From Acidobacteriota bacterium (GTDB lineage: Bacteria; Acidobacteriota; UBA890; WLXD01): a stretch of 64,000 nucleotides of DNA. Below the pieces are notes generated by a model, which worked only from the letters and a program-made list of their open reading frames with translations, did no database searches and was not told the origin of the DNA. The stretch is from positions 372,001 to 436,000 of the forward strand of contig WLXD01000002.1 in the NCBI GenBank assembly GCA_012103255.1, in the 5' to 3' direction. A program made the translations under genes and the position numbers. Shown here piece after piece: positions 1 through 58,386 of this stretch; position 1 is the stretch's first letter, and each line of letters opens with the position of its first letter.

Positions 1-107
1 TCTACCGCCTGACGCCGCGGGGTGAACAGCACCTCGATACGCAGGTAGCCAAGTGGCGCCGCTACGCCTCGGCGGTGCTCGGGATCCTCGACTCCAACGG
101 CGGCTGA
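1..107 (+). CDS. PadR family transcriptional regulator, C-terminal end (partial)
   Basis: The reading frame is open from the window edge to the TGA at 105-107 and gives about 34 residues, YRLTPRGEQHL...WRRYASAVLGIL. This is the wing and C-terminal helix typical of PadR regulators (Y-x-L-T-x-x-G followed by a W-x-x-Y-A helix), and it closely resembles the end of the PadR at 17585-17920. The ADOP permease start codon follows two bases after the stop, the same arrangement as the other PadR-ADOP pairs here. The DNA-binding helix lies outside the window. Seen: the C-terminal pattern and spacing. Inferred: repression of the downstream permease. Confidence 0.8.
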   Translation, partial: YRLTPRGEQHLDTQVAKWRRYASAVLGILDSNGG

Positions 108-10220: not shown

Positions 10221-12956
10221 CTATTGGCGTAGGGCTTCGGCGGGCTCAACGAGTACCGCACGGCGGGCTGGCACCGCGGCCGCAAGGCCGCCCACGACCA
10301 CCAAGACGGCGAGCGCCACGCACCAGGTCGCAGGATCGAGCCGGCTTACGCCGTAGAGGTATCCCTCGATAAGCCGCACGCTGAATATCGACAGCCCTGC
10401 ACCTCCGAAGGCTCCCGCCAGAAGCGCTCCGAGTGCACCACGGAGAGTGGTCCCAACAACCCTCGCCCCGTTGGCGCCAAGCGCCATCCGTACCCCGATC
10501 TCACGCCGCCGCGCCGACACCGCGCGACCTGTGGCTCCGTAGACACCGAGAGCAGCAAGCGCGAGCGCCACGATCCCAAGCGAAGTGAAGAGCCGGCCTA
10601 GAAGAACTCGCTCCGATAGATGTGACTCCAGCGCCTCGCGAATGCCGGGCGAGCGGTCCATGCGGAGCAGCGGGAGCAACGGATCGACCTGAGCCCCCAC
10701 CTTCATCGCGGTATCAGCGACCGCCGCCGGCTCTTCGCCATCCACGAGTAACCAAGCCTGAGGAACGGCAAATCCCCCAGCCCCGAACGGCAAGTACACT
10801 ATGTGGGGCGCTGGCTCCACCAGATCATTGGTAAGCACATCACCGACAACCCCGACAACCCTGAAATCGCGCCCTTTTCGCCCCCGTATCGGGAATCTCA
10901 CTACCTTTCCGATCGGGGTATCGTCGTCGAACAGATGTCGAGCCACCGACTGGCTAACGATCACGACGTCAGCCTCCGCATCGGCTGCAGGGAACTGCTC
11001 GTCTGGGCGGAAAGTGCGCCCTTGAAGAACTGGTATTCCCAACATGTCGAAGTAGCCTCGGGTCACATGGAACTCCGGCATCGTCAATGGAGTCCCCTCT
11101 ACATCCGCCTTCGGGTCGGCAACGAAGGTGTACATGGCGCAGCAAGCGACGGGCACAGCAGAAGCCATGACAACGCTGTCAACTCCGGTTTCGCCCTGCA
11201 GCGCGTCGAGTAGATCCCGCTGGTAGGCGGACACCTCCGCCGGGCTGTAGCCCTGGTCGCCGGTGTTTACAACGAGCAGACGCACCGTCCCGGGTCGGAC
11301 GCCAGGATCGACTTCCGCCAGGGCTGCAAGCGTCGATGAGAACAGCAGCGCGCCGATCACCAGGGGCACTCCGATCGCCAGTTGCAATGCGATCAGAGCG
11401 GTACGCCAATGCGCGCTCCTGCGTTTCGAACGGGAACCGGCCCCGGCGATCCACCGAGCTGGATCGGCTCTGGAGATCCACAGCGCCGGAAGAATACTGG
11501 CACCGAGCGCCACAACAACACACAGGCCTGCAGTGAACGCAACTACGCGCGAATCCGTCTCAACTCGCGAGATCGGCTGGAACATCCCGCCGAGGCGAGA
11601 TCCTTCGATTGCGGACAGAAAGAACCGTGCAAGCGCCAAGCCAGCGACAGCTCCGATCGCACATAGCGTCATGGCTTCGAGCAGGCCGCGACGCACCAGG
11701 ACGGAACTGCGCGCACCCAACGCCTTGTGGAGGCAGATCTCGCCCCGACGGTCAATTGCTCGCATCAGCAGCAGGTTGGTTACGTTCGAGCATCCGACGA
11801 GCAGAACGCTTGCCGTCACGAACATGAGAAGACGTAGGCTCCGAGCCAGCATGTCTCGGCGAAGAGGATCGTTACCGATCCGGGGATAGACCACGAAAGT
11901 GCCAACCGAGAGGCCTTCATTCGCCTCTGGGTAGCGCTCGGCTAGCCCTGCGGCCAGGCTACCGAGTTCCGCTTCTGCCTGCTCCCAGGTGAACCCGGGG
12001 GCAAGTCGCGCGACGAACTCGTAGAAGCCGATCCCGTCGTCGCGACTGGTGCCTCCATTCGCGCGAGAAAAGTTGCGTACCGCATCGTGGCTCGCCCCCG
12101 GTAGCCATAGGTCAGTTTGGCCTATTCGCGTCAACCCGTGGAACCCGGGCGGCAGGACTCCAATGATCTCGACCGTATGCCGGTTCACCGAGAACTCGGC
12201 GCCGATCGCGGCGTCGGCACTCGCGAAACGCGTGGTCGCCAAACTGTGGCTCACCACCGCGACCATCGCTCCGCCCTGGGTTGGGTCGTCCTCGGCTGCA
12301 TTGAAGAAGCGCCCGGCCGACGGTCGCAACGCAAGCGCGTCGAAGTACTCCGGGGTCACGAACTCAAGCGGTACCGGCTGCCCTCGCCCTTCTTCCCACA
12401 GGAGTGTTGCAGTTCCGCCCTGGGTTGCGCCGAGGGCCTCGATCGTTTCCAGGGCCGTGGTGATCTCAAGCAAATTAGGGTACGTGATGCGTCGCGGCGA
12501 AAGGCCACCCTCTCTCGCTACCCCATGCCGCACGAATCCCAGACCTTCCGCGTCGCTCACGCCCGGTAGCGGCCGGAGGAGCAACCAGTTCGCCAGGCTG
12601 TAGACAGCCGTCGTAGGGCCCATAGATAGTGCAACCGTAACCACGACGAGTGCGGAGAACGCAGGCGCACTGGCCAGGCCTCGCCATGCGCTGCGAAACT
12701 CGCCAGGGATCCCCTTCAACGTGTCCATCGGCCCGCCGGGACGCTTGAGCCGCGAGGCGTGTTCCCGAGGGGCCGATACTGCCGTATCGCGGAGTAAGCG
12801 ACTCCAGGCCCGCCACCCTGGCTCTCCTTGCCCACCACGTGTGACCACACGCTCATAGTCCGTCAGAAGCTCATCGGCGAAACGCGCTCGGAACGCAGCC
12901 GGGTAGGCAAGCAGTAGACCGCGACGGACCAGTCGCCCAAGCCGCCGAGCCCTCAT
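10221..12956 (-). CDS. ADOP family duplicated orphan permease (prefix type 2)
   Basis: 911 residues. Residues 1-75 form the second kind of ADOP prefix (LLLAYPAAFRARFADELLTDYERVV), seen in permeases paired with short PadR proteins. Then come the first membrane segment (about 93-118), a periplasmic domain, an FtsX unit with the divergent core GCSNVTNLLLMRAIDRRGEI, a second periplasmic domain and a final FtsX unit ending in VPARRAVLVEPAEALRQ. The GPTTAVYS after the first helix replaces the usual GANTAIFS, so this copy is more divergent than its neighbours. Its ATG overlaps the PadR stop (ATGA), implying coupled translation. No ATPase is nearby. Confidence 0.92.
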   Translation of the reverse strand: MRARRLGRLVRRGLLLAYPAAFRARFADELLTDYERVVTRGGQGEPGWRAWSRLLRDTAVSAPREHASRLKRPGGPMDTLKGIPGEFRSAWRGLASAPAFSALVVVTVALSMGPTTAVYSLANWLLLRPLPGVSDAEGLGFVRHGVAREGGLSPRRITYPNLLEITTALETIEALGATQGGTATLLWEEGRGQPVPLEFVTPEYFDALALRPSAGRFFNAAEDDPTQGGAMVAVVSHSLATTRFASADAAIGAEFSVNRHTVEIIGVLPPGFHGLTRIGQTDLWLPGASHDAVRNFSRANGGTSRDDGIGFYEFVARLAPGFTWEQAEAELGSLAAGLAERYPEANEGLSVGTFVVYPRIGNDPLRRDMLARSLRLLMFVTASVLLVGCSNVTNLLLMRAIDRRGEICLHKALGARSSVLVRRGLLEAMTLCAIGAVAGLALARFFLSAIEGSRLGGMFQPISRVETDSRVVAFTAGLCVVVALGASILPALWISRADPARWIAGAGSRSKRRSAHWRTALIALQLAIGVPLVIGALLFSSTLAALAEVDPGVRPGTVRLLVVNTGDQGYSPAEVSAYQRDLLDALQGETGVDSVVMASAVPVACCAMYTFVADPKADVEGTPLTMPEFHVTRGYFDMLGIPVLQGRTFRPDEQFPAADAEADVVIVSQSVARHLFDDDTPIGKVVRFPIRGRKGRDFRVVGVVGDVLTNDLVEPAPHIVYLPFGAGGFAVPQAWLLVDGEEPAAVADTAMKVGAQVDPLLPLLRMDRSPGIREALESHLSERVLLGRLFTSLGIVALALAALGVYGATGRAVSARRREIGVRMALGANGARVVGTTLRGALGALLAGAFGGAGLSIFSVRLIEGYLYGVSRLDPATWCVALAVLVVVGGLAAAVPARRAVLVEPAEALRQ

Positions 12957-13351
12957 GAGTTGCCATCCTCGGGCAGCAAGTTCTTGGCGCCCACAAGATC
13001 TGAGAGGCGCGTGAGTCGCCCTGCCTCACCGCGCAGCGCTTCGAGCCCCCGTTCCGTGAGTCGGAAGTACTTGCGCGGACGTCCGGCACCGGTTGACTCG
13101 GGCTCCGCAGCGAGTTCGTGCGCACCAGCCTCGATCACCAGACCGGAGTCCTGCAGGCGCGCGATCGCCCCGTAGATCGTCCCGGGTCCCGTGGCAATCG
13201 ACGGTCCCGCGGCTTCAGCCACCGCTTGCATCACCGCGTACCCGTGCAGCGGGCCATCGGCGAGCGCCAGCAGGATATGAAAGACGGCCGGTGTCAGCGG
13301 TTCCGGCGCCTGGGACTTCCCCTCCGTGCCTCGAGAGCCTCTTCGCGTCAT
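12953..13351 (-). CDS. PadR family transcriptional regulator
   Basis: 132 residues. A winged helix spans about 20-110 with the PadR landmarks FHILLALADGPLHGYAVMQ, GTIYGAIARLQDSGLV and KYFRLTERGLEAL. It is a short-tailed PadR (PadR-s2-like), with only a brief C-terminal helix for dimerisation. It begins 40 bases downstream of a nested palindrome (13392-13439) and overlaps its ADOP partner by four bases at the 3' end. GGGGGA precedes the ATG. Likely an autorepressor that also controls the permease; the inducer is unknown. Its recognition-region sequence (GPGTIYGA) differs from the EEGTLYPA type found at 17585 and 23523. Confidence 0.9.
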   Translation of the reverse strand: MTRRGSRGTEGKSQAPEPLTPAVFHILLALADGPLHGYAVMQAVAEAAGPSIATGPGTIYGAIARLQDSGLVIEAGAHELAAEPESTGAGRPRKYFRLTERGLEALRGEAGRLTRLSDLVGAKNLLPEDGNS

Positions 13352-13391: not shown

Positions 13392-13439
13392 ACTTATTAC
13401 GGCGTGCGTAGTATTAATACTACTACTGACGTAATAAGT
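13392..13439. promoter_or_regulatory. nested palindromic operator between PadR and propeller genes
   Basis: Outer arms ACTTATTACG (13392-13401) and CGTAATAAGT (13430-13439) are perfect inverted repeats. Inside them GTAGTATTAATACTAC (13408-13423) is itself a perfect 16-base palindrome. Both have the same centre, 13415.5. It is AT-rich in GC-rich surroundings and sits in the divergent gap upstream of the PadR gene, 40 bases from its ATG. This is the pattern expected for a dimeric or tetrameric repressor site. Binding by the adjacent PadR is inferred. Confidence 0.7.
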
Positions 13440-14943: not shown

Positions 14944-17592
14944 CTACTCCTCTACCATCGCGGAGCGCGCCGGTATCCTCAGTGCTCGTCGTGCCGGGAG
15001 CCAGGCGGCAGCGACGGCGACCGTCGCGAGGACGAGAGGGACCGCGGCCCACGTCGTCGGATCGAGCGGGGTCACGCCATACAAGAGCGAGGTCATCAAT
15101 CGCGTGGTCCCGAAGGCGAGGGCCAGGCCCCCGAGGATTCCGAGGATCGCGAAGCCAAGGGAGGATCGAAGGATCAGGGCGACCACACCCGCGGGTCGGG
15201 CGCCGAGAGCGACGCGCAGGCCGATCTCTCGACGTCGTGACGTCACTCCGAAGGCAGTGACCCCGAAGATACCTAGTGCCGCGAGAAGGAGGGCGGCGGC
15301 ACTGAACGCCGACAGGATGCCCATGGTGAATCGAGGCCAGGCCACGGCGTCGCGCACCGAGTCCTGCACCCGCACCGGGTCGATGAGCGGCACGGCGGGC
15401 AGCATTCGAGCCGTCGTCTCGCGCAGCTGGGGAATCACCTGCGACGTCGACCCGGGCGCGACCCTGACGATGACGCCCGGGTTGTACCAGGCGACTGACC
15501 CGTAGGAGCGGTAGATGCGCGGTCGGGTATCGGCGTCCATCCGCTCATCCTGCGCCGGCTCCACGATCCCGATCACTTCGTACTGTCGCCCCCCGGGCAT
15601 GAACCAGGTGAGTCGCTCGCCGACCGGATCCGAACTCGAGCCCCAGATCGTGTCGGCCAGTCCCCGGTCGATGATCACTCGATGCGAGCCGTCCGATTCC
15701 ATGTCTCTTCGCTCGAAGGTGCGCCCGGAAAGGAGCGTGAGTCCGGCCGCCGTGAAGTAGTTCTCACTGACCGCACGCCAGCTGACCCGTTGAAAGTCCT
15801 CCTGCCGATCGGGTTCGTTCTCCGAGTCGGCCACGAAGTTGCTCGGCTGCATCCACCCAAACGGAGGCGCGTGGGTGACGCCGGCTGCGACGACGCCGGG
15901 GATGGCCTCCAGCTCATCCATGAGGCGGCCGACGTGCTGCACGCGCTCCTCCGGGGCGTACTCATTGACTGGCATCCGAATCGAGGCAACTACCATCCCC
16001 TCCAGCTCAATGCCCAGATCCCGAGCCGTCATGGCCGTGAAGCTCCGCATCATGAGTCCGGCGCTCAGCACGACCGCCACAGCGAGGGCGAACTGCACCG
16101 AAACGAGCGCTCCACGGACGCGGCTACCCGCGCCGCGTGACGAGCGATCTCGCAGGGCACCCGACCCTCCATCCTTCTCGAGCATGAGCGCCGGCGCGAG
16201 GCCGGACGCCAGAATCGTGATCACACCTGCAGCCAGCGCCACGCCGAGCACAGGCAGCCCGACCGTCGCGTCATCAAGACGCCCCATGCTCGAGGAACCG
16301 AGCGCGCGCACGAGGGGCAGGGCCGCTTTGGCGAACAGGATCGCGAACGGGCCGGCGATCAGAGCCAGAACCGCACCCTCTACGAGAAGCTGCGAGCGAA
16401 GCCGACGTCGGTCGGCCCCCAGGGCCGCCCGGACCCGGATCTCGTGTCGGCGCCCGGACGCCTGCGCAATACGAAGGTTGGTGATGCTGGCGCACGCCAT
16501 GAGGAGGAGAAGGCCTACCGCCCCCAGCAGAAGGTTCCCGAAGCGCGTCTGTCGCCCTCCCACGAAGTAGGTCTGGAGCGGGCGGACGCTCGCTCCCCAC
16601 CCGTCGTTCGCGTCCGGGTACAGCTCGGCTAATGCGGCAGCGATGACATCCATCTCCGACTGCACGTCCTCGACCGATACGCCCGGCCGCATCCGCCCGA
16701 TCGCCTCGATGTCCTGGCTGCCGCGTTCCTCGACCTCGAGCGGAGCAAGCGGTGTGAAGACCCCAACACCCGGCCAGCCACGATCCGATGGCACGACGCC
16801 GATGATGGATCGGGACACGCCGTTGACAACCAGTTCCGTACCGAGAATGTCGGGGTCGGCGCCCCAGCGGCGTCTCCACTCCCCTTCCGATATAACGACG
16901 ACCCTCGCGTCCGCACCCTCGACATCTTCCTGGGCCAGAAAGGCGCGACCCAGCAGGGGATCCAGACCGAGAAGGCCGAAAAAGGTGTGGGAAACTCGCA
17001 TGCCAGCGGCGCTTTCGGCCCGATCATCAAAGGTCAGGACGGGACGTTCGACGGCCATCCCCGCCATCTCCACGAGCGTCGTCTGGCGCAGTCGGAAGTC
17101 CACAAAATTCGCCTCGGAGATCGAGTGGATGCGGCCTTGGGGAGAGGTCTGGCCCACGCGCACCAAACGCTCATCGTCGGGGAACGGGAGGCCGCTGAGC
17201 ACCACGGCATGCACTACCGAGTAGACGAGCGCGGTCGCGCCGACGCCGAGTGTGAGCGTTGCCACCGCAAGACCATTCGTGGTCGGCCGGCGCACCAGCT
17301 GGCGTATGGCGAAGGCCACGTCCTGGCGCACTCCGTCCACCCAATTCACGAACCCCTTCATCCCCGCCTCCCGTCGTTTCCGTTCACGTTCTCGCTCTCG
17401 TAGGCACGCCCCGGAGTGGAGGTCCGGGTCCCCGAAGCGTCGCCGCGCCTCGTTCTTGGCCTCCTCCCGCGACCACCCCGCGGCCACCAGTTCGTCCACG
17501 ATCATCTCGAGATGAAACTGGAACTCCTCGCCCAACTCGGTCCGACGGCGGTTCGGACTAACCACATCGTTCCCGCGCCGTTGATCAGCCAT
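14944..17592 (-). CDS. ADOP family duplicated orphan permease (prefix type 1)
   Basis: 882 residues from the ATG at 17592, which overlaps the PadR stop by eight bases (ATGGCTGA); the in-frame codon at 17616 would lie deeper inside the PadR gene. The prefix domain (LGEEFQFHLEMIVDELVAAGWSREEA..RFGDP) spans about 15-75 and is followed by a charged RERERERKRRE linker. The first membrane segment contains LTLGVGATALVYSVV. The first FtsX unit reads MACASITNLRIAQASGRRHEIRVRAALGA, less conserved than the usual CANVANL. The second half carries FALAVAVVLSAGLMMRSF and the end is LPARRALRIPARSAM. No ATPase gene is adjacent. Confidence 0.92.
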   Translation of the reverse strand: MADQRRGNDVVSPNRRRTELGEEFQFHLEMIVDELVAAGWSREEAKNEARRRFGDPDLHSGACLRERERERKRREAGMKGFVNWVDGVRQDVAFAIRQLVRRPTTNGLAVATLTLGVGATALVYSVVHAVVLSGLPFPDDERLVRVGQTSPQGRIHSISEANFVDFRLRQTTLVEMAGMAVERPVLTFDDRAESAAGMRVSHTFFGLLGLDPLLGRAFLAQEDVEGADARVVVISEGEWRRRWGADPDILGTELVVNGVSRSIIGVVPSDRGWPGVGVFTPLAPLEVEERGSQDIEAIGRMRPGVSVEDVQSEMDVIAAALAELYPDANDGWGASVRPLQTYFVGGRQTRFGNLLLGAVGLLLLMACASITNLRIAQASGRRHEIRVRAALGADRRRLRSQLLVEGAVLALIAGPFAILFAKAALPLVRALGSSSMGRLDDATVGLPVLGVALAAGVITILASGLAPALMLEKDGGSGALRDRSSRGAGSRVRGALVSVQFALAVAVVLSAGLMMRSFTAMTARDLGIELEGMVVASIRMPVNEYAPEERVQHVGRLMDELEAIPGVVAAGVTHAPPFGWMQPSNFVADSENEPDRQEDFQRVSWRAVSENYFTAAGLTLLSGRTFERRDMESDGSHRVIIDRGLADTIWGSSSDPVGERLTWFMPGGRQYEVIGIVEPAQDERMDADTRPRIYRSYGSVAWYNPGVIVRVAPGSTSQVIPQLRETTARMLPAVPLIDPVRVQDSVRDAVAWPRFTMGILSAFSAAALLLAALGIFGVTAFGVTSRRREIGLRVALGARPAGVVALILRSSLGFAILGILGGLALAFGTTRLMTSLLYGVTPLDPTTWAAVPLVLATVAVAAAWLPARRALRIPARSAMVEE

Positions 17593-17920
17593 CGGACTCG
17601 GCGTTGAGCACCCCACCGACCGCTGCGGCGTAGCGTTCCCAGGAAGAGCGACGCTCGGTTAGCTGCGCTTCGCCCTCTCCCGTGAGGGAGTAGAACTTCG
17701 CCCGCCGGTTGTTCTCCGAAAGGCCCCACTCGCTCATCACCCACCCGCGTTCGGCGAGCCGGTGCAGGGCCGGGTAGAGCGCGCCCTCCTCGAGGAGAAG
17801 TTCCTCGTTGGAGGTCGCCCGAATCCACTGCGCCACGGCGTATCCATGCTTGGGAGCGTCGACGAGCGCCCGGAGAACCAGCATGTCGACGGTGCCGCGG
17901 ATGAGTTCGAGATTGGACAT
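17585..17920 (-). CDS. PadR family transcriptional regulator
   Basis: 111 residues. The winged helix starts at residue 5 (IRGTVDMLVLRALVDAPKHGYAVAQWI), with the recognition region LLLEEGALYPALHRLAERGWV and wing KFYSLTGEGEAQL. A WERYAAAVGGVL helix closes the protein and closely resembles the PadR fragment at the left edge of the window. Its stop overlaps the permease start. Two direct repeats of a CCCTTAGGTTTC element lie 22-66 bases before its ATG. Probably an autoregulator of the PadR-ADOP pair. Confidence 0.92.
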   Translation of the reverse strand: MSNLELIRGTVDMLVLRALVDAPKHGYAVAQWIRATSNEELLLEEGALYPALHRLAERGWVMSEWGLSENNRRAKFYSLTGEGEAQLTERRSSWERYAAAVGGVLNAESDG

Positions 17921-17941: not shown

Positions 17942-17986
17942 CCCTTAGGTTTCATGGGGAAGATATCAGGCTTCCCCTTAGGTTTC
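17942..17986. promoter_or_regulatory. direct-repeat operator with CCTAAG core upstream of PadR
   Basis: CCCTTAGGTTTC occurs at 17942-17953 and again at 17975-17986, exactly 33 bases apart (about three helical turns). Between and overlapping them, GGGGAAG (17956-17962) and CTTCCCC (17971-17977) form an inverted repeat. On the gene's own strand the repeat reads GAAACCTAAGGG, whose ACCTAAG core also occurs as an inverted repeat in front of the PadR at 23523. The rest of the 405-base gap (17921-18325) holds only the short tandem repeats listed separately. Confidence 0.6.
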
Positions 17987-18062
17987 TAGGGAACAACTTC
18001 GCGCGCCCGAAAGGTGGCGTCTCTGACTGCGCTTCCAGCGGCGCCCGGCGGGTCCCCGAACG

Positions 18063-18131
18063 ATGCCCGGCGCAATGCGTCGCGCATGCCCGAAGCATTG
18101 CCTGACGCATGCCCGAAGCAATGCCTGAGCA
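18063..18131. repeat. three tandem 23-base repeats
   Basis: Three contiguous 23-base units begin at 18063, 18086 and 18109. Each starts ATGCCCG and carries GCAATGC or GCATTGC in the middle. The second and third differ at only a few positions; the first is more diverged. The alternating GCATTGC/GCAATGC also gives imperfect dyad symmetry. No gene that I can support covers the repeats. Confidence 0.7.
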
Positions 18132-18139
18132 ATGCCCTT

Positions 18140-18196
18140 CAACGTCAACGTCAACGTCAACGTCATCTTCGACAGTAGAAACGATTCGATTCGATT
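18140..18196. repeat. short tandem repeats (AACGTC x4, CGATT x3)
   Basis: AACGTC is repeated four times at 18141-18164, and about 20 bases later CGATT is repeated three times at 18182-18196. They lie directly after the 23-base repeats and 130-185 bases before the gene at 18326. One frame through them stays open and would encode a Ser-Thr run, but it has no recognisable domain, so I treat this as non-coding. Confidence 0.65.
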
Positions 18197-18325
18197 CGAA
18201 GACGACGCTGCTGCTGGTGAGGTCATGGAGTCCAGGAACGACCTCACGAAGCGAGGGACTTCGGAAAACAGTTGGCCCGACGGTTTTAGATGGTGAATTG
18301 TTCGTGAACGATCGGAGATCCAGCC

Positions 18326-19063
18326 ATGAAAAGAATGCTCGTCGCGGCGACGATCACTTGCGCCGCGTTCGTCGCGAGCTCCGGCACAGCCCCTGAAGCG
18401 GCTGAGATAGAGCAGCAGGAAGCAATGGCGCCCGCTGCCGTCGAAACCTTGGACTGCTCCGTGTTCGGTTACCCGCGCGGCGTCGTGGGCAACCGTCCCA
18501 ACGGCGAAACTCAGCAACTCTACAAGGGCAACAAACGGTTGCTTTACTACTACGCCCCAACCGATGGCACGGCAAACATCGAACACATCGGCGACGTAGT
18601 CGGGCCGTCTGCAGGGTCGATCGGCGAGTACAGTCGCGTCTACTCCAACCCGCACCAACATGACGACGCCACAGTCTGGATCATGGTCGCGGAGCCGGGC
18701 CGCGTGGTTGTCAACAGCACTGAGAAGTACTGCCAGATCAAGCATCAGAACGTCACGGTCGCGCCTAACACGCGTGGAGAACTGTGGCGCGGAGACGACA
18801 ACATCTTCGTGGTCAACGAGGGGCCAGGGACGGTCACGCTGCAAGACGTCAACGGCAACGATGTCGCGGGAAAACTCCCCGCCGGCGCGTCCGTCGCACT
18901 CGGCGGCATGAACCAGCTCTATGCGAAGAACGTAAACAACCCAGCCGCAGTGAACGCGACGGTCTACACGTTCATCGGATATGACCCGATCCGGATCGCC
19001 AGCATCGAGGCAGAAATCGCCCGGATCACTGCCGCGAACGCGGAGACTCACCGGGAGCGGTAG
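18326..19063 (+). CDS. secreted protein of unknown function
   Basis: 245 residues. A signal peptide (MKRMLVAATITCAAFVASSGTA, cleavage near residue 22-25) indicates export. I do not recognise the family. The mature part is rich in Asn, Gly and Val and looks all-beta (WIMVAEPGRVVVNST, IFVVNEGPGTVTLQDVNGN, AVNATVYTFIGYDP), with two cysteines (CSVFGYP near residue 44 and YCQIKHQ near 136) that could pair. The last 25 residues form a charged helix (ASIEAEIARITAANAETHRER). A ribosome binding site (GGAGAT) is visible about ten bases before the ATG. It stands alone downstream of the repeat region. Confidence 0.7.
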   Translation: MKRMLVAATITCAAFVASSGTAPEAAEIEQQEAMAPAAVETLDCSVFGYPRGVVGNRPNGETQQLYKGNKRLLYYYAPTDGTANIEHIGDVVGPSAGSIGEYSRVYSNPHQHDDATVWIMVAEPGRVVVNSTEKYCQIKHQNVTVAPNTRGELWRGDDNIFVVNEGPGTVTLQDVNGNDVAGKLPAGASVALGGMNQLYAKNVNNPAAVNATVYTFIGYDPIRIASIEAEIARITAANAETHRER

Positions 19064-19279
19064 TCACGCGCCTCGACCCCATCTACAAGGCCCCGTGACC
19101 TTCGGGTTATGAGTTCTCTGCTGGGCGTGGCGCGCCCCCAGTTCGGCAGCGTTGCTGGGCACCACCAGGGTCTGCAGTGGCAACGAGTGGTGTGGCGCGG
19201 CACACCGGGTGGCACCCGTCGTCCGCCAGGCGGCGGTTCCCTGCGAACACGGTGGGGTGATGTACTCGCGTGGTACGAG

Positions 19280-20368
19280 CTAGCCGGTGGGCGCGACGGT
19301 CACGAAGAAGAAGAAAGGCTCGGAGGGATCGAAGTTCCCACCTTTCGGCGTCACATTGATATCGAGCACGTCGTCGACCTCGACCTTGACTGCGCCGAAG
19401 GACTTCGTCTGCGAAGCCACGTTGTTGCCGTTGACGGTGAGCTTGTACTGCACCGACAGCTTCTTCTTCCCGTTCTTGTCCTTGAGCGTGACCGCGACCT
19501 TAATCGTCTTCGGTGCTGAGGAGCGCCCCTCGCGAGTCCCGATGAAGGCCCCGCCGAGCTGAACATCTGCTGACACCGTATCGAACGCAACGCCGGATCT
19601 GACTCGCACGAGCCGCGTCTTGGCCCGCGCCTGTGCAGCGTCGACCGCAGGGAACACGACCGGAATCACCATCGCGTTGTCGGGCACCGCACCCAGCACG
19701 TCCCGCCCGGCTCCGGCGGCTCCAAGCCCGATCCGGCCATACTCGCTCAGGGCTGTTAGAGCTCCCCGCGCCGACGGCTTGTAGCCAAGTGCCAGCTGTG
19801 CGGTCTGGTCATTGGCGAGATCGCCACCCTTGGGCTTGGCTCTGAGGATTACCGCGTCGTTGACGTCGGCGACGAAGCCCGTCAGGTTCATCGACTGATT
19901 GATTTTCCCCTTCTTGATCTTGATCGTGGACTTCAGGACGGTGTCGCCGACGCGCTGCCCGCGCTCGCCGGCGGGCACGTGCTCGACTTCAACATCGATC
20001 TTCTTCGGGAGCTTGCTTCGGCTTGAACTATCGACCGAGACGTCGCCGCTAAGGTCGATCAGGCCGTCGGGGAAAAAGATTCCGACGCCCGGGATAAAGC
20101 GGAAGAGGTTGGTCCGCTTCTTGTTGGGAACGATGGCAGTGCCGTCGGGGCTCGGGAACGAGATCGTCGTGGACGCCGAGAGGAAGCCGAAGGTGAAGAA
20201 ATCGGAGGCGCCATCGGTGTCGACGCTGCAATTGCAGCAGAAGGACGAAGTGGCCGAAGAACCGATCAAAGCAAGCGGCAGCATCACAGCAACTACGAAT
20301 GCGCGAAGCAAAGTACGGCTCGCTGGAAGCCTCAGCGTAGGCTGGTCGTGAGAGCTGTCGTCGCGCAT
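19280..20368 (-). CDS. secreted protein of unknown function, Lys-rich beta domain
   Basis: 362 residues from the ATG at 20368, which has GGAGG eight bases upstream; the in-frame start at 20449 has no such support. A signal-like hydrophobic segment (LLRAFVVAVMLPLALIGSSA) is followed at once by SSFCCNCS, three cysteines in four residues. The remainder looks beta-rich with basic strands (STIKIKKGKINQSM, KVAVTLKDKNGKKKLSVQYKL, AVKVEVDDVLDINVTPKGG). It resembles a surface or structural exoprotein more than an enzyme, but I do not recognise a family. The 216-base gap to the convergent gene ending at 19063 shows no other feature. Confidence 0.7.
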   Translation of the reverse strand: MRDDSSHDQPTLRLPASRTLLRAFVVAVMLPLALIGSSATSSFCCNCSVDTDGASDFFTFGFLSASTTISFPSPDGTAIVPNKKRTNLFRFIPGVGIFFPDGLIDLSGDVSVDSSSRSKLPKKIDVEVEHVPAGERGQRVGDTVLKSTIKIKKGKINQSMNLTGFVADVNDAVILRAKPKGGDLANDQTAQLALGYKPSARGALTALSEYGRIGLGAAGAGRDVLGAVPDNAMVIPVVFPAVDAAQARAKTRLVRVRSGVAFDTVSADVQLGGAFIGTREGRSSAPKTIKVAVTLKDKNGKKKLSVQYKLTVNGNNVASQTKSFGAVKVEVDDVLDINVTPKGGNFDPSEPFFFFVTVAPTG

Positions 20369-20527
20369 CGATCTGACCTCCGGAACGGGCGTCGCTCTGA
20401 GCGAACGGCTGGAACCGGGAAAGTAGCGCGGCGGCCAGGACAGTGACAAGTGCCGGGCCTCAATTTCCCGTCATGTGGCGCGCATGCGCCAGCCCTGCAT
20501 CGAGGGTGGGTCGCATAGGATGTGCGC

Positions 20528-21346
20528 ATGCCGCAGCCTTTCGACCCTATCTTCTACGTGTTGCCGCTCGCCGCGGGAGAAGCACTCCCTCTCTACACCT
20601 ACGGAGTCGCGCGCGGTCTCGCGATCATCGCCGTCGTGCTCGTGTGGCGCTACGGCTTCAGGCGTCGCGGCATCGACCCGGATCATGCCTACATGGCCTT
20701 CCTCTGGGTTGCCCCGATTACGCTGCTCGCCACGGCGATGTTCAGCTTCGGTCAGTTCGCGGCCCTGCTCGGTGAGGGCGCTGACCCCTGGCGGGTCTTT
20801 CTACTGGCGATCACTCGGCCCGGCGGGAGCTCGCTTATCGCCATACCTGTGGGACTGCTGGCGGTGCTGCAGTACGCCCGACTCTACGGAGTCCCCACAC
20901 GGCGCTTCCTCGATGTCGCCGCCCTTAGCGCCGCGTTGGCGCTGCCCATTCAGCGGGTCGGCTGCTCGGCCGCCGGTTGCTGCTACGGCGGCGCCACGGA
21001 AGTCCCCTGGGCCGTCACCTACGACCTCCTGCTTCTTGCCTACCCGCGAGTAGCCCCGCTCGGCGTGCCGATCCATCCGACGCAGCTGTACGAAGCGGCC
21101 GCGACTCTGGCGTTGTTCATCACTCTGATCTGGATGTTTCGCCGGAACTCGCCCGATGGCTCGGTCTTCTGGTCATTCCTCGGCGGCTACGGAGCGATCC
21201 GATTCGCCGTGGATATCCTCCGCGACGACCCGCACCCGTTCGGTGAATGGAACGGCCTCTGGGGCGCCCATCTGATCTACGCGGGAGCGGTCTTGGCCGC
21301 GTTCGTCGCGCTGCGCCGGATCCGGCGGGACTCACGATCCGACTGA
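20528..21346 (+). CDS. prolipoprotein diacylglyceryl transferase family protein (divergent)
   Basis: 272 residues from ATG 20528 (an in-frame GTG lies two codons earlier). There are about seven membrane segments. The Lgt-family signatures are QRVGCSAAGCCYGG (about residues 147-160) and HPTQLYE (about 183-189), followed by a GGYGAIRFAVDILRDD block corresponding to the conserved Arg region. True Lgt also has an H-G-G motif near its third membrane helix; here that position reads PGGSSLIAIPVG, without the histidine. It may therefore be an Lgt paralogue with a different job rather than the housekeeping enzyme that lipidates the many lipoproteins in this window. Confidence 0.75.
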   Translation: MPQPFDPIFYVLPLAAGEALPLYTYGVARGLAIIAVVLVWRYGFRRRGIDPDHAYMAFLWVAPITLLATAMFSFGQFAALLGEGADPWRVFLLAITRPGGSSLIAIPVGLLAVLQYARLYGVPTRRFLDVAALSAALALPIQRVGCSAAGCCYGGATEVPWAVTYDLLLLAYPRVAPLGVPIHPTQLYEAAATLALFITLIWMFRRNSPDGSVFWSFLGGYGAIRFAVDILRDDPHPFGEWNGLWGAHLIYAGAVLAAFVALRRIRRDSRSD

Positions 21347-21519
21347 CTCTAGCCGTCACGACCGGTGGCCCCCTTGGGTGATCTACGTAGGTCGAAATAC
21401 GCAATCTCTTGGAATCGAGGCTCCCGGCACCGTCACGGGTGTAGGGTCAGAAGCACGGCAACTTGGTAACAGCCAGCAGGGACGACTAGCTCCCGCTACG
21501 CGGAAGGACTTCAGCAACC

Positions 21520-22068
21520 ATGAACTGCCCCGAGTGTGGAGCCTCTCTCGAGCGTCGGAATCTGGCGAGCGTCATCGTTGACGAATGCGTGGAATGCGGC
21601 GGCATTTGGTTCGATCGCGACGAGTTGAGGCGTGCCAAGGATGCGGCCGAACCCGACGCCAATTGGCTCGACTTCGAGGCTTGGAAGCACACCGACAGCG
21701 TCCACGGCAAACCAGCCGGGATGGACTGTCCATCTTGCGAAGTGCCACTGCTCGAACTGACCTATGGGGACACCGGCGTTGAGATCGACCACTGCCCAGG
21801 CTGCTGGGGCGTCTGGCTCGCCAAAGGCAGGTTCCGTGCCATCGTCGAAGCGCTCGACAAACAGATCGACTCGATGCCTGCGGCAGAGTTGTTCCAAGCC
21901 ACGCTCCGCGAAGCGCGCTCGCTGATCGAGGGCACCGAGGAGAACCTCGGCTCAGACTGGCACGACTTCGCGACTGTGCTGAGGCTGTTGGAATACCGCT
22001 TCCTGGTGGACAACCCGAGTGTGGCGGCCGCACTCGCGAGATTCCAAGGTGGCAGTCCGTTCAGGTAG
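21520..22068 (+). CDS. TFIIB-type zinc-ribbon protein, two CxxC pairs repeated
   Basis: 182 residues. Two zinc-ribbon units are visible: CPECGA...DECVECGGIWFDRDEL (residues about 3-37) and CPSCEVPL...DHCPGCWGVWLAKGRF (about 69-106). Each has the CxxC...CxxCxGxW pattern of the zf-TFIIB family. The remaining about 75 residues are helical (AAELFQATLREARSLIEGTEENL). Proteins of this family are often of unknown function. No operon partner is evident: the gaps on both sides exceed 170 bases. GGAAGGA about ten bases before the ATG is a reasonable ribosome binding site. Confidence 0.85.
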   Translation: MNCPECGASLERRNLASVIVDECVECGGIWFDRDELRRAKDAAEPDANWLDFEAWKHTDSVHGKPAGMDCPSCEVPLLELTYGDTGVEIDHCPGCWGVWLAKGRFRAIVEALDKQIDSMPAAELFQATLREARSLIEGTEENLGSDWHDFATVLRLLEYRFLVDNPSVAAALARFQGGSPFR

Positions 22069-22249
22069 CCTCCTCTAGGTGCTCTGCGCACCAATCTCCG
22101 GTATGGCCCCGTCACCGTAGCTAGAGCTGGCCGGCCAGTAGGGGCGACACGACCCGTGGACAGTTCGCGACAGGCGCTGCTACGGTGAGGTTCGGGTCTA
22201 CGCCGCTTGGGCGCGGAGTCCTCGTCGAGGCCCAAAGGAAGAAGGAGCC

Positions 22250-22510
22250 ATGTTTGAGTCCCTAGCCGCTTGGTTTGACTCGCCGTTCTCGGGAGGGTTG
22301 GCCGGAGGCTTCCTTTATGCGGGCCTGTTCGCCGCCGCCCTAGTGCTGCTCGACCGCGGCGCGACGATCCTGAAGGTCGGCACCGCCAGCTTCGATTTGG
22401 GGCCGTCTGGTATCGAGATCGCTGGGGATAGGGCGCGAGTGATCGGCTATGCGTTCCTGGGATCCGGCTCGCTGGCATTCATCGCCTGCGCCGCCTTGCT
22501 ACTGACCTAG
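22250..22510 (+). CDS. small membrane protein of unknown function
   Basis: 86 residues with two predicted membrane segments (GGLAGGFLYAGLFAAALVLL and VIGYAFLGSGSLAFIACAAL) joined by a short polar loop with a GTASFDLGPSGIEI beta-hairpin-like stretch. AAGGAG lies just before the ATG. I do not recognise the family. The upstream gap is 181 bases and the downstream gap to the adaptor-like gene is 191 bases. Confidence 0.65.
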   Translation: MFESLAAWFDSPFSGGLAGGFLYAGLFAAALVLLDRGATILKVGTASFDLGPSGIEIAGDRARVIGYAFLGSGSLAFIACAALLLT

Positions 22511-22701
22511 GAAGCAGACTCGCGGCGCCCATTCCGGAAACGACCGCCCCGTCCCAGCGACGCGACATGTCGCCTTCGATCGGGGCCTCAACGATCCCGG
22601 AATGCGGCGTCCTGGTGGTCTGGCACGAGCCTTGCTCTAGACAATCGACAACAAGGCCGTATGCCTCACTCGGGAGGTTCGGCAAGCGCACGGAGGTGAC
22701 C

Positions 22702-23346
22702 ATGTCACGAACCCTCAGAACCGGCGCGGTGCTCGCGATCGCCCTCGTAGCGCCCGTCGCGGCGTTCGCGCAGGAAGAAACGGCGGCGCTCGAAGAAGTC
22801 GACGCGCGGATCATCTGGGTTGGTACGGTCGAGCGCGGCTCGGTGGTGCAGCAGGTACGCGGCCCGGGGACCATGGAGCGTTTTGGCCGCGGATTCCACG
22901 CCCACGTACGCGTGATGGCGAATCACGCAGCCGCGCTGCAACTCGACCAGGAAGCCACTGTCGACACGCGCTCTGAGAAGCTTGTCGGTCGTGTAGTGCA
23001 TATAGACGATCGCATTGAAGAAGGCACACTTCGCGTGATCGTGGAGGTCACCGATGCGATTCCGGACAGCGTCCGGCCAGGCCTGAGCATCGACGCGCGA
23101 ATCCGCACAGGTGTTCTCGAAAACGTCGTGTACGTCGATCGCCCGGCCTACGGCCAGACCGGTCAGACCATCGGAATCTTCAAGCTCACTTCCGACGGCT
23201 CGATTGCCGAACGCATCCCGGTGACCTTCGGCGCCTCGTCAGTCGACAAGATCGTGGTCGCCGACGGCCTCATGCCCGGCGATCAGATCATCCTGTCGGA
23301 CATGTCGCGCTACGACGCCTCGCACAAGGTCCGCCTGATCCAATAG
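22702..23346 (+). CDS. truncated RND/HlyD-type periplasmic adaptor protein
   Basis: 214 residues from ATG 22702, chosen for its GGAGGTGACC ribosome binding site and the signal peptide that begins there (LAIALVAPVAAFAQ); the in-frame ATG at 22567 lacks both. The mature part matches only the beta-barrel and membrane-proximal end of membrane-fusion proteins (IPDSVRPGLSIDARIRTGVL, VYVDRPAYGQTGQTIGIFKL, VADGLMPGDQIILSDMSRYD). The lipoyl domain and alpha-helical hairpin needed to meet an outer-membrane channel are absent. It may be a remnant, or a reduced adaptor that works with an ADOP. A strong hairpin follows the stop. Confidence 0.75.
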   Translation: MSRTLRTGAVLAIALVAPVAAFAQEETAALEEVDARIIWVGTVERGSVVQQVRGPGTMERFGRGFHAHVRVMANHAAALQLDQEATVDTRSEKLVGRVVHIDDRIEEGTLRVIVEVTDAIPDSVRPGLSIDARIRTGVLENVVYVDRPAYGQTGQTIGIFKLTSDGSIAERIPVTFGASSVDKIVVADGLMPGDQIILSDMSRYDASHKVRLIQ

Positions 23347-23375
23347 CAAGAGTCCCGCCGCAAGGCAGGAACCCG

Positions 23376-23412
23376 CCGGCCCGCACGTGATCGCCTACGT
23401 GCGGGCCGGTTT
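23376..23412 (+). terminator. intrinsic terminator after the adaptor-like gene
   Basis: CCGGCCCGCACGT (23376-23388) and ACGTGCGGGCCGG (23397-23409) form a perfect 13-base-pair stem with an 8-base loop, followed by TTT. It lies 30 bases after the stop at 23346 and insulates the PadR-ADOP operon that follows. Confidence 0.8.
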
Positions 23413-23462
23413 CTGCGTCTGAAGTTCGTGGCCATGTCGGCGTCCTCCGCGTCTCGCACTTG

Positions 23463-23501
23463 ACTTCTAACCTAAGAAGTTAATATAAACAGCTTAGGTT
23501 A
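23463..23501. promoter_or_regulatory. inverted-repeat operator with CCTAAG core upstream of PadR
   Basis: TAACCTAAG (23468-23476) and CTTAGGTTA (23493-23501) are perfect inverted repeats with 16 bases between, 22 bases before the PadR ATG. ACTTCT (23463-23468) and AGAAGT (23475-23480) form a second dyad overlapping the left arm. The AT-rich spacer could hold a -10 element. The ACCTAAG core is shared with the repeat upstream of the PadR at 17585-17920. Confidence 0.7.
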
Positions 23502-23522: not shown

Positions 23523-23873
23523 ATGACTCGTGTACGCGCGAACCGGCTGTATGGCGCGGTGGAATTGCTGATCCTGCGGAGCATCGATCGGCATGGCCCG
23601 CTGCACGGACTCGACATCGCCCGTGCGATCGCCACGGGCTCAGATGCCACGATCCAGATCGAGGAAGGGACGCTCTACCCCGCCCTGCACCGGATGCAGA
23701 AGCGCGGCGTGCTGCGCGGTGAGTGGCAGAAGTCGGACAAGGGGCGTCGTGCGCGGGTCTACGACCTGACCGCCGAGGGCCGCGCCGAACTCGCGAACGA
23801 ACTCGACTCCTGGGTTCGCCACACTGCTGCCATCCGACAGGTTCTCGATATCCCCGAGGAAGAAGTGTCTTGA
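23523..23873 (+). CDS. PadR family transcriptional regulator
   Basis: 116 residues. Winged-helix landmarks are AVELLILRSIDRHGPLHGLDIARAI, the recognition region IQIEEGTLYPALHRMQKRGVL, and wing RVYDLTAEGRAEL, followed by a C-terminal helix ending VLDIPEEEVS. AGGAG lies about eight bases before the ATG. The stop overlaps the TTG start of the downstream permease (TTGA). It shares the EEG[TA]LYPALHR recognition region and a CCTAAG-type operator with the PadR at 17585. Likely autorepressor of the pair. Confidence 0.92.
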   Translation: MTRVRANRLYGAVELLILRSIDRHGPLHGLDIARAIATGSDATIQIEEGTLYPALHRMQKRGVLRGEWQKSDKGRRARVYDLTAEGRAELANELDSWVRHTAAIRQVLDIPEEEVS

Positions 23874-26491
23874 AAGACAAACGCACTCCTCTCCCCTGGC
23901 GCCCGAGCCGCGACGAGATCGACGAAGAGATCCTGCACCACATGCGGGGCCGGATTGACGACCTGGTGCGAGCCGGCCGCTCGCGCGAGGACGCCGAACG
24001 TGAGGTGCGCCAGCGCTTCGGGAACCCTGGCTCGGTCCGCAAACAGACTGAGCGCGTGTACGCGCCGGAACGCGGCAGCTTCTTCGGCACACTGGTCTCT
24101 GAAATTGTCGGCGCCGCGCGATCCCTGCGCCATCGGCCCGCGTTCGCTCTCACGGCCATCCTGCTCGTCGCGGTGGGCATCGGCGCCACCACGGTGATGC
24201 TTGCAGTCGTCGACGCGTACCTCCTGCGCGGCATGCCGTTCCCGCATGCTGAGCGCCTCGCCTGGATCAACGAAACGCCGCCGCAGAACGAGCGCGTGCG
24301 ATCGCGACCGGCGGAGGTGAACTGGCGCGAGGCTGACGACGTGGGACTGGCCGTCAGCTGGGACCGCGACGCATTCACCTTGCTCGGCGACGGCCCTCCG
24401 CAGACCGTCTCGGGCGTCTGGGTGCCACCCGATTTCTTCGAAGCCTTCGGCATCACCACCGCGATGGGCCGCAGCTTCGCTCCCGACGAGATCGGCCCCA
24501 ACGCAGCACCCGTCGCGATTATCAGCCACGACCTGTGGCAGACGCGTTTCGGTGGAGCGGAGGATGTGCTCGGCCACACGATACGGATGTACGCGTCCGA
24601 CCGCCCGGATGATGCGCAGGCTCTCACCGTCATCGGCGTGCTGGCGGCCGACTGGTGGCACATGTACGAGTCCACGCAAATTCTCACCCCGCTCGGGTCG
24701 CACGATCATCCGACCTACGTGGTGCGCATCGAGACGGGTGTTGAGATGCACGAGGCGGCGCAACGTATGACGGCGTTCGCACGCCAGTCATGGGGGCCCG
24801 AATTCTCCGATTGGAACGTCGAACTCAGCCCGATGCACGAGCAACACGTCGAAGAGGTTCGCCCTCTCTTGCAGACGCTCGGCGCGGGCGTGTCGCTCGT
24901 GCTCCTCATCGCGTGCGCCAACGTGGCTGTGCTCTTCCTCGTGCAAGCGGTCGGTCGAACCCGTGAGTTCGCGCTGCGGGCGGCGCTGGGAGCTGCTCGA
25001 TCACGCCTCGCGTTGCGCCTTGTCGCTGAGGCCGCTGTGGTCGGTTTGGCTGGAGCAGTCGTCGGCGCGCTGATCTCCTCGCAGGTACTTGCCGTGCTCG
25101 GCTCAGCCATTGAAGTCCGCCTCGGCGCCTCCGTGCCGGGTGGCACCACCGCGCTCGCCCTTCAGCCGCGCGTGTTGCTGGTAAGCATCGGCATCACCGG
25201 TGTGGTCACGCTGCTGTTCGGGCTCGCTCCCCTGCTCGCCGGGATCGGCGGCAATCTGTCCGGCACGCTCACCGGCAGCGGCCGCTCATCCACCGGGACC
25301 GCGCGGCACCGCACGCTCCGCACCGGGCTGATCGTGCTCGAGGTTGCTCTGTCGGTGGCACTGCTGGTCGGTGCAGGACTCACGATGCGCTCGGCGATTC
25401 ATCTGTCTAACGTGGAACTCGGATTCCAGCCTGAAGGTCTGATCCGCATGGGATTCGGCATGTCATCGGTGCGCTACCCAAGTGCCGCCGAGTGGCATCA
25501 GCGAATCGAAGAAACCGTCACCGCGTTCCGCGAAGTTCCAGGCGTTGAGTCGGTCGCCGCCGCGAACCCGGGCGCGTTCTCTTTTGCCGCCAACCTGGTC
25601 ACAGCTGTCGACGGCCCGATGGCCGAATCCGACACGCGACTACGCGCCGCCGTGCGCTACATCGGCGTCGACTACCTCGAGACGCTCGATATCCAGCAAC
25701 TGGACGGACGCGACTTCGCCACAAGCGACAACGTGGACAACGAGCCGGTTGCCCTGGTGAGCGACGAGTTCGCCGCCACGATGTGGCCGGGCGAAGACCC
25801 GATGGGCAAGGAGATCCGCATCGCCGACCCGATGGGCGACGGAAGTCCCACTCAGCGGCGAGTTGTCGGCGTGGTGGGCGACACTCGCGAGAGCCTCACC
25901 GGCGAGCGCGAGCTCCCGGACGCGTACATTCCGCTGGCCCAGGTGCCATTCCCCTACGTATTCCTGACGGTGCGGGCGCAGGTGGCGCCGGAGACTCTGA
26001 TGCCGACGCTAGAACAGATCGTCTGGAACGACGACCCTGAGCAGCCGCTCAACCGGCCGGGGCTTCTCCAGCGCGTCATCGACGATGCTGCCGCCACGCC
26101 GCAGGCACTGGCGCGACTGCTGACGGTATTCGCATCGTTCGGAGCCCTGCTCGCCGTGGTCGGCGTCTACGGAGTGATCGCCTTCGCCGCGCGCCAGCGA
26201 CGCCGGGAACTCGCCGTGCGCGTCGCCCTCGGTGCCGCACGCAACGACGTCCTCCAAATCGTCCTCGGCCACGGCGCCCGCGTCGTGGCGGTCGGACTCG
26301 CCCTCGGCCTGTTCGGCGCTTGGTTCATGGCGCAAACCCTCGCCAGCCAGATCTACGGAGTGTCCCCCACCGACCCGATCACCTTCGGCGGTGTGGCCAC
26401 GATGCTCGGGCTGGTGGCCCTCGGCGCTGTGCTCATCCCAGCGCGGAAGGCTGCGGCTACCGACCCGATGAGTTTGCTGCGCGAGGACTAG
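23870..26491 (+). CDS. ADOP family duplicated orphan permease (prefix type 1)
   Basis: 873 residues from TTG 23870, which overlaps the PadR TGA as TTGA and follows GAGGAAG; the longer frame back to 23723 runs inside PadR. The prefix domain (about 12-65; IDEEILHHMRGRIDDLVRAG..FGNP) is followed by the first membrane segment (ILLVAVGIGATTVMLAVV). The first FtsX unit reads CANVAVLFLVQAVGRTREFALRAALGAAR, the second half begins VALSVALLVGAGLTMRS, and the C terminus is IPARKAAATDPMSLLRED. The AVGIGATT and LFLVQAVG variants mark it as a divergent member. No ATPase is adjacent. Confidence 0.92.
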   Translation: MKDKRTPLPWRPSRDEIDEEILHHMRGRIDDLVRAGRSREDAEREVRQRFGNPGSVRKQTERVYAPERGSFFGTLVSEIVGAARSLRHRPAFALTAILLVAVGIGATTVMLAVVDAYLLRGMPFPHAERLAWINETPPQNERVRSRPAEVNWREADDVGLAVSWDRDAFTLLGDGPPQTVSGVWVPPDFFEAFGITTAMGRSFAPDEIGPNAAPVAIISHDLWQTRFGGAEDVLGHTIRMYASDRPDDAQALTVIGVLAADWWHMYESTQILTPLGSHDHPTYVVRIETGVEMHEAAQRMTAFARQSWGPEFSDWNVELSPMHEQHVEEVRPLLQTLGAGVSLVLLIACANVAVLFLVQAVGRTREFALRAALGAARSRLALRLVAEAAVVGLAGAVVGALISSQVLAVLGSAIEVRLGASVPGGTTALALQPRVLLVSIGITGVVTLLFGLAPLLAGIGGNLSGTLTGSGRSSTGTARHRTLRTGLIVLEVALSVALLVGAGLTMRSAIHLSNVELGFQPEGLIRMGFGMSSVRYPSAAEWHQRIEETVTAFREVPGVESVAAANPGAFSFAANLVTAVDGPMAESDTRLRAAVRYIGVDYLETLDIQQLDGRDFATSDNVDNEPVALVSDEFAATMWPGEDPMGKEIRIADPMGDGSPTQRRVVGVVGDTRESLTGERELPDAYIPLAQVPFPYVFLTVRAQVAPETLMPTLEQIVWNDDPEQPLNRPGLLQRVIDDAAATPQALARLLTVFASFGALLAVVGVYGVIAFAARQRRRELAVRVALGAARNDVLQIVLGHGARVVAVGLALGLFGAWFMAQTLASQIYGVSPTDPITFGGVATMLGLVALGAVLIPARKAAATDPMSLLRED

Positions 26492-26510
26492 CTCCTGATC
26501 GATTGACGAT

Positions 26511-26535
26511 CAATGTATAGATGGGTTATACATTG
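26511..26535. promoter_or_regulatory. AT-rich inverted-repeat operator upstream of PadR
   Basis: CAATGTATA (26511-26519) and TATACATTG (26527-26535) are perfect inverted repeats with a 7-base spacer, 30 bases before the GTG start of the PadR gene. The outer ATGT...ACAT resembles the general half-site described for PadR proteins, although the spacing here is longer than the usual 8 bases. Confidence 0.7.
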
Positions 26536-26564
26536 CTCGGAAACTCAAAGATCAGGAGCCGCAT

Positions 26565-26915
26565 GTGGCCACAAAGAAGCCAAGCACCTCGCCCACTCCG
26601 CTCACGCTGCAGATCCTCCTTGCTGTAGTCGACAAGCCTCGACACGGATACGGCATCATCAAGGAGATCACCGCTGCGACCGACGGCCGGCTCGTACCGG
26701 CCACGGGTACGATCTACCTCGCGCTGCGGCGAATGATCGACGACAAGCTCATCCGCAACGCAGCGAGACCAGCCGGCGACGACGAACGGCGCCGCTACTA
26801 CTCGCCAACCGCACTCGGCAGGACTGTGCTGGAAGGCGAACTGCGGCAGATGAACGGCGTTCTGGAGGTTGCGCGCCGCAAGCACGCCCTTCAGGAACCG
26901 GAAGGTTCGGCGTGA
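26565..26915 (+). CDS. PadR family transcriptional regulator
   Basis: 116 residues from GTG 26565, preceded by AGGAG. Winged-helix landmarks are LTLQILLAVVDKPRHGYGIIKEI, recognition region PATGTIYLALRRMIDDKLI and wing RRYYSPTALGRTVL. The short C-terminal helix is typical of the PadR-s2 form. The 3' end overlaps the next permease start as GTGA. Its operator (26511-26535) differs from the CCTAAG type, in line with its different recognition region. Confidence 0.9.
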   Translation: MATKKPSTSPTPLTLQILLAVVDKPRHGYGIIKEITAATDGRLVPATGTIYLALRRMIDDKLIRNAARPAGDDERRRYYSPTALGRTVLEGELRQMNGVLEVARRKHALQEPEGSA

Positions 26916-58300: not shown

Positions 58301-58346
58301 GCTGTTGAACTCTTGGGGATCGTTCAGAACCGAGACTACGCACCAC

Positions 58347-58386
58347 ATGTTGGAAAATCAACAGTTAATTGTTGATTTTCCAACAT
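58347..58386. promoter_or_regulatory. double BlaI-type operator dyad
   Basis: A 17-base arm (58347-58363) is repeated in perfect inverted form at 58370-58386, separated by GTTAAT. Each arm is itself a dyad, TGTTG-N6-CAACA, centred at 58355.5 and 58377.5, so there are two repressor sites 22 bases (about two turns) apart on the same helix face. It lies between the BlaI gene and the divergent propeller gene at 58494, so both may be controlled. Confidence 0.8.

Follow-up and report, generated by a model that had tools for sequence, protein, structure and literature searches.

A possible protein-to-DNA code in PadR repressors paired with ADOP permeases: helix-3 residues and operator half-sites

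The stretch analysed here, termed the window, comprises 64,000 nucleotides of the genome of an Acidobacteriota bacterium (G000, 4.8 Mb; C2:372001-436000). Among its genes for PadR-type repressors are two, termed H038 and H016, each of which is followed on the same strand by a large MacB_PCD/FtsX permease of the ADOP type. Computational comparison of these and related genes suggests, with a probability of roughly 0.75, that PadR-ADOP pairs are autorepressed units and that, in PadRs with a YPAL recognition helix, the operator half-sites are set by helix-3 residues 44 and 50 together with residue 42 (bcPadR1 numbering). The central observation is that residue 44 predicts one target base across about 170 related proteins. 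These PadRs may thus follow a simple protein-to-DNA code in a large, unstudied repressor family.

In the proposed scheme, each PadR-ADOP pair would be a self-contained unit, and the PadR dimer would bind one, more often two, 15-16 bp dyads lying over the -35/-10 region of its own promoter. Residue 44, which follows the conserved glycine, would read position 5 of the half-site, with Ala44 specifying A (CCTAA-N5-TTAGG) and Ser44 specifying G (CCTAG-N5-CTAGG). The outer bases, CCTA versus the CTTG/TCGACA type, would be set by residue 50 (Tyr/Phe versus His) together with residue 42 (Glu/Gln). Residues 44 and 50 presumably touch bases; contacts of an Ala methyl with a thymine methyl, and of a Ser hydroxyl with a G:C pair, would make chemical sense. 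The dyads are interpreted as PadR operators, with repression as the probable outcome. The predicted operator dyads overlie -35/-10-like elements, and each PadR is therefore likely to repress the operon that it forms with its ADOP gene.

Residue 44 and position 5 of the half-site

The association between residue 44 and the operator was first seen in 89 held-out PadRs, which came from further lineages of Acidobacteriota, Gemmatimonadota, Verrucomicrobia and other groups. Within the CCTA class of this set, CCTAA accompanies Ala/Thr44 in 16/21 cases versus Ser44 in 1/29 (p=6e-8), and CCTAG accompanies Ser44 in 20/29 versus Ala/Thr44 in 5/21 (p=0.004). By helix type, PadRs of other genomes with EEG[AT]LYPALHR have CCTAA in 10 of 13 cases and those with EEGS in 1 of 17, and CCTAA is present in all six with [EQ]QGALYP[AG]L[YF]R. 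The residue-44 rule was then fixed and tested on 28 PadRs at new loci, drawn from 386-genome samples of the phylum. CCTAA/TTAGG is found in 21 of the 23 Ala-type (Ala/Thr) PadRs, one of which also has CCTAG. The five Ser-type PadRs show CCTAA in no case and CCTAG/CTAGG in every case (p=2e-4 for the contrast). The new loci include a few near-identical orthologues from a single family and some loci shared with the held-out set, so that the effective n is smaller and the clustering test given below is safer. The tightest near-isogenic contrast is that between QQGALYPALYR at L330, with CCTTGACAACTTAGGAGAG, and QQGSLYPALYR at L349, with CCTTGACAGACTAGGAGAG.

An unbiased alignment points to the same base. 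For 117 non-redundant promoters, the CTTG of the -35 box served as the sole anchor, with later bases unseen. For residue 44, covariation peaks at the base that immediately precedes TAGG (z=10.6, from column shuffles uncorrected for kinship); this base is C in 66/74 promoters of Ser44 PadRs and T in 15/28 of those with Ala44. Residue 50 covaries with position 13 of the same alignment (z=8.5, likewise uncorrected), which is mostly G with Tyr/Phe and mostly A with Gln42-His50.

Several observations weigh against a simple form of the code. The first rule, fixed before the test and derived from the source genome and class relatives, was that Glu before the glycine (the xEG class) marks CCTW-N7/8-WAGG. 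In the set from which it came, the exact dyad is found upstream of 19/37 xEG PadRs and 1/143 of all other classes, against about 0.02 in shuffles. In the held-out set, the CCTW dyad is found in 17/34 xEG but also in 12/50 PadRs with Gln before the glycine (xQG), with none in a far-upstream control, and CTTG-N8-CAAG with at most one mismatch is found in 25/50 xQG versus 0/34 xEG. The rule was thus right in direction but failed as a statement that Glu/Gln 42 decides between CCTW and CTTG. CCTW sites also lie upstream of 11 of about 13 xQG PadRs that have Tyr or Phe after PAL, so that residue 42 does not act as the main determinant. Perhaps the influence of Glu/Gln 42 is less on the choice of base than on affinity or posture, which agrees with the position of bcPadR1 Glu42 at a sulfate standing in for a DNA phosphate (PMC3506622). 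In addition, Thr44 is ambiguous (CCTAA for H016, CTAGG for L327), many Ala/Ser contrasts differ at residue 50 too, some Ala-type PadRs use CCATAA-N5-TTATGG instead, and neither motif is seen in about a third of the Ser-type PadRs.

The unit of recognition appears to be a 15-16 bp site, half-site-N7/8-half-site, which is often present twice, 31-35 bp apart; the direct repeat upstream of H038 fits this pattern. Variants of helix 3 retain other dyads. A PadR with EEGVLYPALHR (H012, L123) keeps ACCTATGTTxTCTAGG..CCTGGTTAGCATAGG, and PadRs with DEGSMYPALYR (H011, L129-L131) keep TGTCTAAGGAA..TCCC[TC][TC]AGACA. The canonical ATGT-N8-ACAT was considered as an operator of the YPAL class and rejected, as it is not found in that class: exact ATGT-N7/8-ACAT is present in 0/37 xEG and 0/15 xQG PadRs. 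Upstream of the PadR at L302, L245 and L354-L358, in-frame start codons seem to be located in or right after CCTAA-N5-TTAGG (CCTAACATGATTAGG in L302). Start codons at these operators would mean leaderless PadR mRNAs.

Operators within one genome and common descent

The source genome has at least 150 PadR genes, and the analyses concern the 150 listed, of which 138 are followed on the same strand by an ADOP-like permease. A correlation between recognition helix and operator is thus testable inside one genome. First-look PadR candidates number 162-173 in this genome and at most 96 in others, the largest set among the 386 sampled genomes of the phylum. The best inverted repeat was sought in the region -110 to 0 before each PadR, with a stretch 220-330 bases upstream as control. 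A dyad with p<=0.05 is present upstream of 77/150 PadRs versus 5/150 for the control stretch, and the dyads differ between genes. Operator similarity correlates with helix-3 similarity, but weakly (Mantel r=0.087, a value reached by 0 of 2000 permutations).

The original prediction was that PadRs with an EEG-type recognition region share one operator, and that across PadR-ADOP pairs of the same genome helix type goes with upstream motif. The second, more general part is supported: the correlation is present in the same-genome comparison, and the difference in CCTAA between EEG[AT] and EEGS helices points the same way. The EEG signature itself is not discriminating. The helix consensus of the whole PadR-s2 subfamily is EGT(L/I)YPxLxRLE (PMC3506622), and EEG..LYPALHR is therefore close to the default rather than rare; [EQ]QGA PadRs also carry CCTAA. 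It is Ala versus Ser after the glycine that tracks CCTAA versus CCTAG.

Other helix types appear to have shared elements of their own. CTACA is found upstream of 13/29 PadRs of the G[AG]VY class versus 12/121 of the rest, and this class appears to be a separate operator class among the non-YPAL PadRs, the majority in this genome. Several PadRs with the helix G[AG]VY[TAV]TL (H087, H093, H110, H133, H147 and others) show compact palindromes, CTACA-N-TGTAG or CCACATTGTGG.

Whole-domain identity is about as good a correlate of operator similarity within the source genome (r=0.104) as helix similarity is, and code and descent are consequently inseparable at this level. Thus related PadRs might simply have inherited their promoters together, with residue 44 marking clades and not reading a base. 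Ala-type PadRs do belong to few clades. When the helix-3 columns are left out of the tree, residue 44 shows a minimum of 12 changes and the operator class a minimum of 10, but supported branches provide only about four independent contrasts; on average 2.6 of these go the same way, 0 the opposite way and 1.4 show no difference. The best tree, which is weakly supported, gives eight concordant, no discordant and four no-difference pairs when the closest pairs are taken first. Two of the latter four belong to the xQG-His class, which uses no CCTA sites.

The absence of discordance among these 12 contrasts argues for a reading of the base by residue 44, as does the persistence of the association under clustering. 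With one sequence per cluster, the Ala/Ser-CCTAA association gives p=3e-8 at 70%, 3e-5 at 60% and 0.003 at 55% identity. Two separate clades, [EQ]QGA..[YF] and EEGA..H, show a shift in the same base column. Operators otherwise diverge fast, so that passive retention of a single base is less expected. Descent as the sole explanation is accordingly considered unlikely, and the phylogenetic case for a code is consistent but not closed.

The two modules of the window and their CCTAAG repeats

The genes and sites of the two modules, followed by three other PadRs of the window used for comparison, are:

17585-17920, minus strand: PadR H038 (PF03551, E 7.6e-18; helix 3 LLLEEGALYPALHRL)
14944-17616, minus strand: ADOP-type permease after H038, overlapping its end (MacB_PCD and FtsX)
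17976-17990, minus strand: proposed H038 dimer site 1, CCTAG-AAACC-TAAGG, which holds the first ACCTAAG (exact CCTW-N7-WAGG)
17943-17957, minus strand: proposed H038 dimer site 2, CCATG-AAACC-TAAGG, with the second ACCTAAG (CCTW-N7-WAGG with one mismatch)
23523-23873, plus strand: PadR H016 (PF03551, E 2.7e-20; helix 3 QIEEGTLYPALHRM)
23723-26491, plus strand: ADOP-type permease after H016, extent of the open reading frame (MacB_PCD and FtsX, Pfam)
23460-23465, plus strand: putative -35-like TTGACT of the H016 PadR/ADOP promoter, read from the sequence
23484-23489: putative -10-like TATAAA of the H016 promoter, likewise read from the sequence
23470-23499, no strand: predicted H016 operator, ACCTAAG-N16-CTTAGGT (dyad p=0.007 against shuffles)
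12953-13351, minus strand: PadR H089, helix GPGTIYGA, unrelated dyad at about 13392-13439
26565-26915, plus strand: PadR H063, helix ATGTIYLA, unrelated dyad at about 26507-26539
53474-53851, minus strand: PadR H080, helix PATLYGA, unrelated dyad upstream

H038 and H016 score 64.7 and 72.6 bits against a curated PF03551 cut-off of 27. They are short proteins of 111 and 116 amino acids with no separate C-terminal domain, and both have the subfamily motif given above (EGALYPALHRLA and EGTLYPALHRMQ). In both modules the PadR gene is followed by its permease on the same strand; the true start of the permease linked to H016 is probably near the PadR stop, at about 23870. A further YPAL PadR, with the helix EEGQLYPALQR and the upstream dyad CCTACTCCTAATAGG, lies across the left edge of the window (window 1-38; contig C2:371817-372038).

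The helix-3 segment is EEGALYPALHR in H038 and EEGTLYPALHR in H016. Both promoters have ACCTAAG twice, as first described: upstream of H038 the copies are in direct orientation at a distance of 33 bp (CTTAGGT at 17944-17950 and 17977-17983 on the plus strand), and upstream of H016 they are inverted (ACCTAAG at 23470-23476, CTTAGGT at 23493-23499). The contrast drawn with H089, H063 and H080, which have other helices and other dyads, also holds. In the proposed scheme, the two modules would share CCTAA-containing operators because both PadRs are of the Glu42, Ala/Thr44, His50 type.

For H016, the site is conserved. In two same-genus relatives (L121/L181 and L122/L182; identity 56% and 49%), CCTAA-N18-TTAGG is retained with unchanged spacing, and the rest of the promoter has diverged. 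A single-sequence contig scan with H016 as query found no relative. The operator can be read as a pair of dimer sites that overlap, CCTAA-GAAGT-TAATA (23471-23485) and TATAA-ACAGC-TTAGG (23484-23498). For H038, the best inverted repeat of the promoter is not significant (p=0.17) and class-wide searches found no orthologue, the matches of 49-53% being at paralogue level with other operators; the proposed site consequently rests on the 33-bp direct repeat. Dimer site 2 would lie 33 bp downstream of site 1, within the 31-35 bp that is typical of paired sites in the class. The dimer-site register at this promoter is a tentative one: ACCTAAG would probably be part spacer and part half-site, whereas upstream of H016 CCTAA is an outer half-site. 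Just upstream of the H038 promoter, at window 18060-18200, there are short repeats (ATGCCCGAAGCATTGCC-like, CGTCAA and GATTC).

The hexamer alone is not enriched. CCTAAG is found upstream of 4/150 PadRs versus 6.2 expected from shuffles, and therefore is not a general operator of EEG PadRs. As a mark of all of them it was rejected, since it is missing upstream of the genome's other xEG PadRs. The genome has just two copies of ACCTAAG-N6..30-CTTAGGT, one of which is not beside a PadR. This second dyad is a perfect ACCTAAG-N11-CTTAGGT (C4:175393-175417, L119), which could be due to chance; no recognisable PadR is present within its 2-kb locus.

In a genome with so many PadRs, and with a hexamer that is not enriched, the letters common to the two promoters might be coincidental. 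The differing register and the lack of an H038 orthologue to confirm the site add to this possibility. On the other hand, both PadRs are of the helix type that has CCTAA in 10 of 13 cases elsewhere, and both promoters have two copies (counted by eye), where 0.2 PadRs with two or more copies would be expected. Coincidence is thus rather improbable, though it is the least improbable of the alternatives considered.

The original prediction also raised possible cross-talk between the two modules. Helix 3 is similar in the two PadRs, the heptamer is common to both promoters and the modules are 5.5 kb apart, all of which would favor binding of each PadR to the other's promoter. However, a pair of sites spaced by 33 bp faces an overlapping pair offset by 13 bp, a difference that should matter for cooperative dimers, and residue 44 is Ala in one protein and Thr in the other. 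Cross-regulation therefore seems improbable.

Significance and comparison with known systems

Acidobacteriota and Gemmatimonadota have hundreds to thousands of PadR-ADOP pairs without an assigned function. If the residue-to-base rule is true, their operators, and hence regulons and likely orthogonality, would be predictable from sequence. A modular code, with residue 44 specifying position 5 (Ala for A, Ser for G) and residues 50 and 42 the outer bases, might have let one genome hold more than 100 self-addressed repressor-operator pairs; this is a tentative suggestion, with the odds slightly against it. The PadR-ADOP set offers natural material for the study of insulation between paralogous repressors and parts for orthogonal repressors. 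No operator for PadR-ADOP pairs and no earlier account of a residue-base relation was found in the literature searched, mostly without subscription journals. VanR of Corynebacterium glutamicum, a PadR-type aromatic acid regulator of a catabolic operon, has an operator half that contains TTAGG, and is mentioned only as a lead.

The window PadRs resemble the PadR-s2 (PadR-2) autoregulators LmrR, LftR and bcPadR1/2 in being single-domain winged-helix proteins of about 110 amino acids with an EGTLYPxLxRLE helix 3, and in having a dyad over their own promoter and an adjoining transport gene (PMC3506622, PMC6457526). Dimers are the DNA-binding form of PadR-s2 proteins, and helix 3, the recognition helix, lies in the major groove (PMC3506622). 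The MecI/BlaI penicillinase repressors are likewise winged-helix dimers that bind dyads, but belong to a different Pfam family (PF03965); a gene for a repressor of this type is found at window 57914-58348, amid the PadR-ADOP modules. The principal difference from characterised PadR-s2 systems is in the operators, which have ATGT/ACAT with 8-10 bp between in those systems and CCTW-N7/8-WAGG or CTTG-N8-CAAG in the YPAL class described here. Operator sequence is not a defining feature of the PadR-s2 family.

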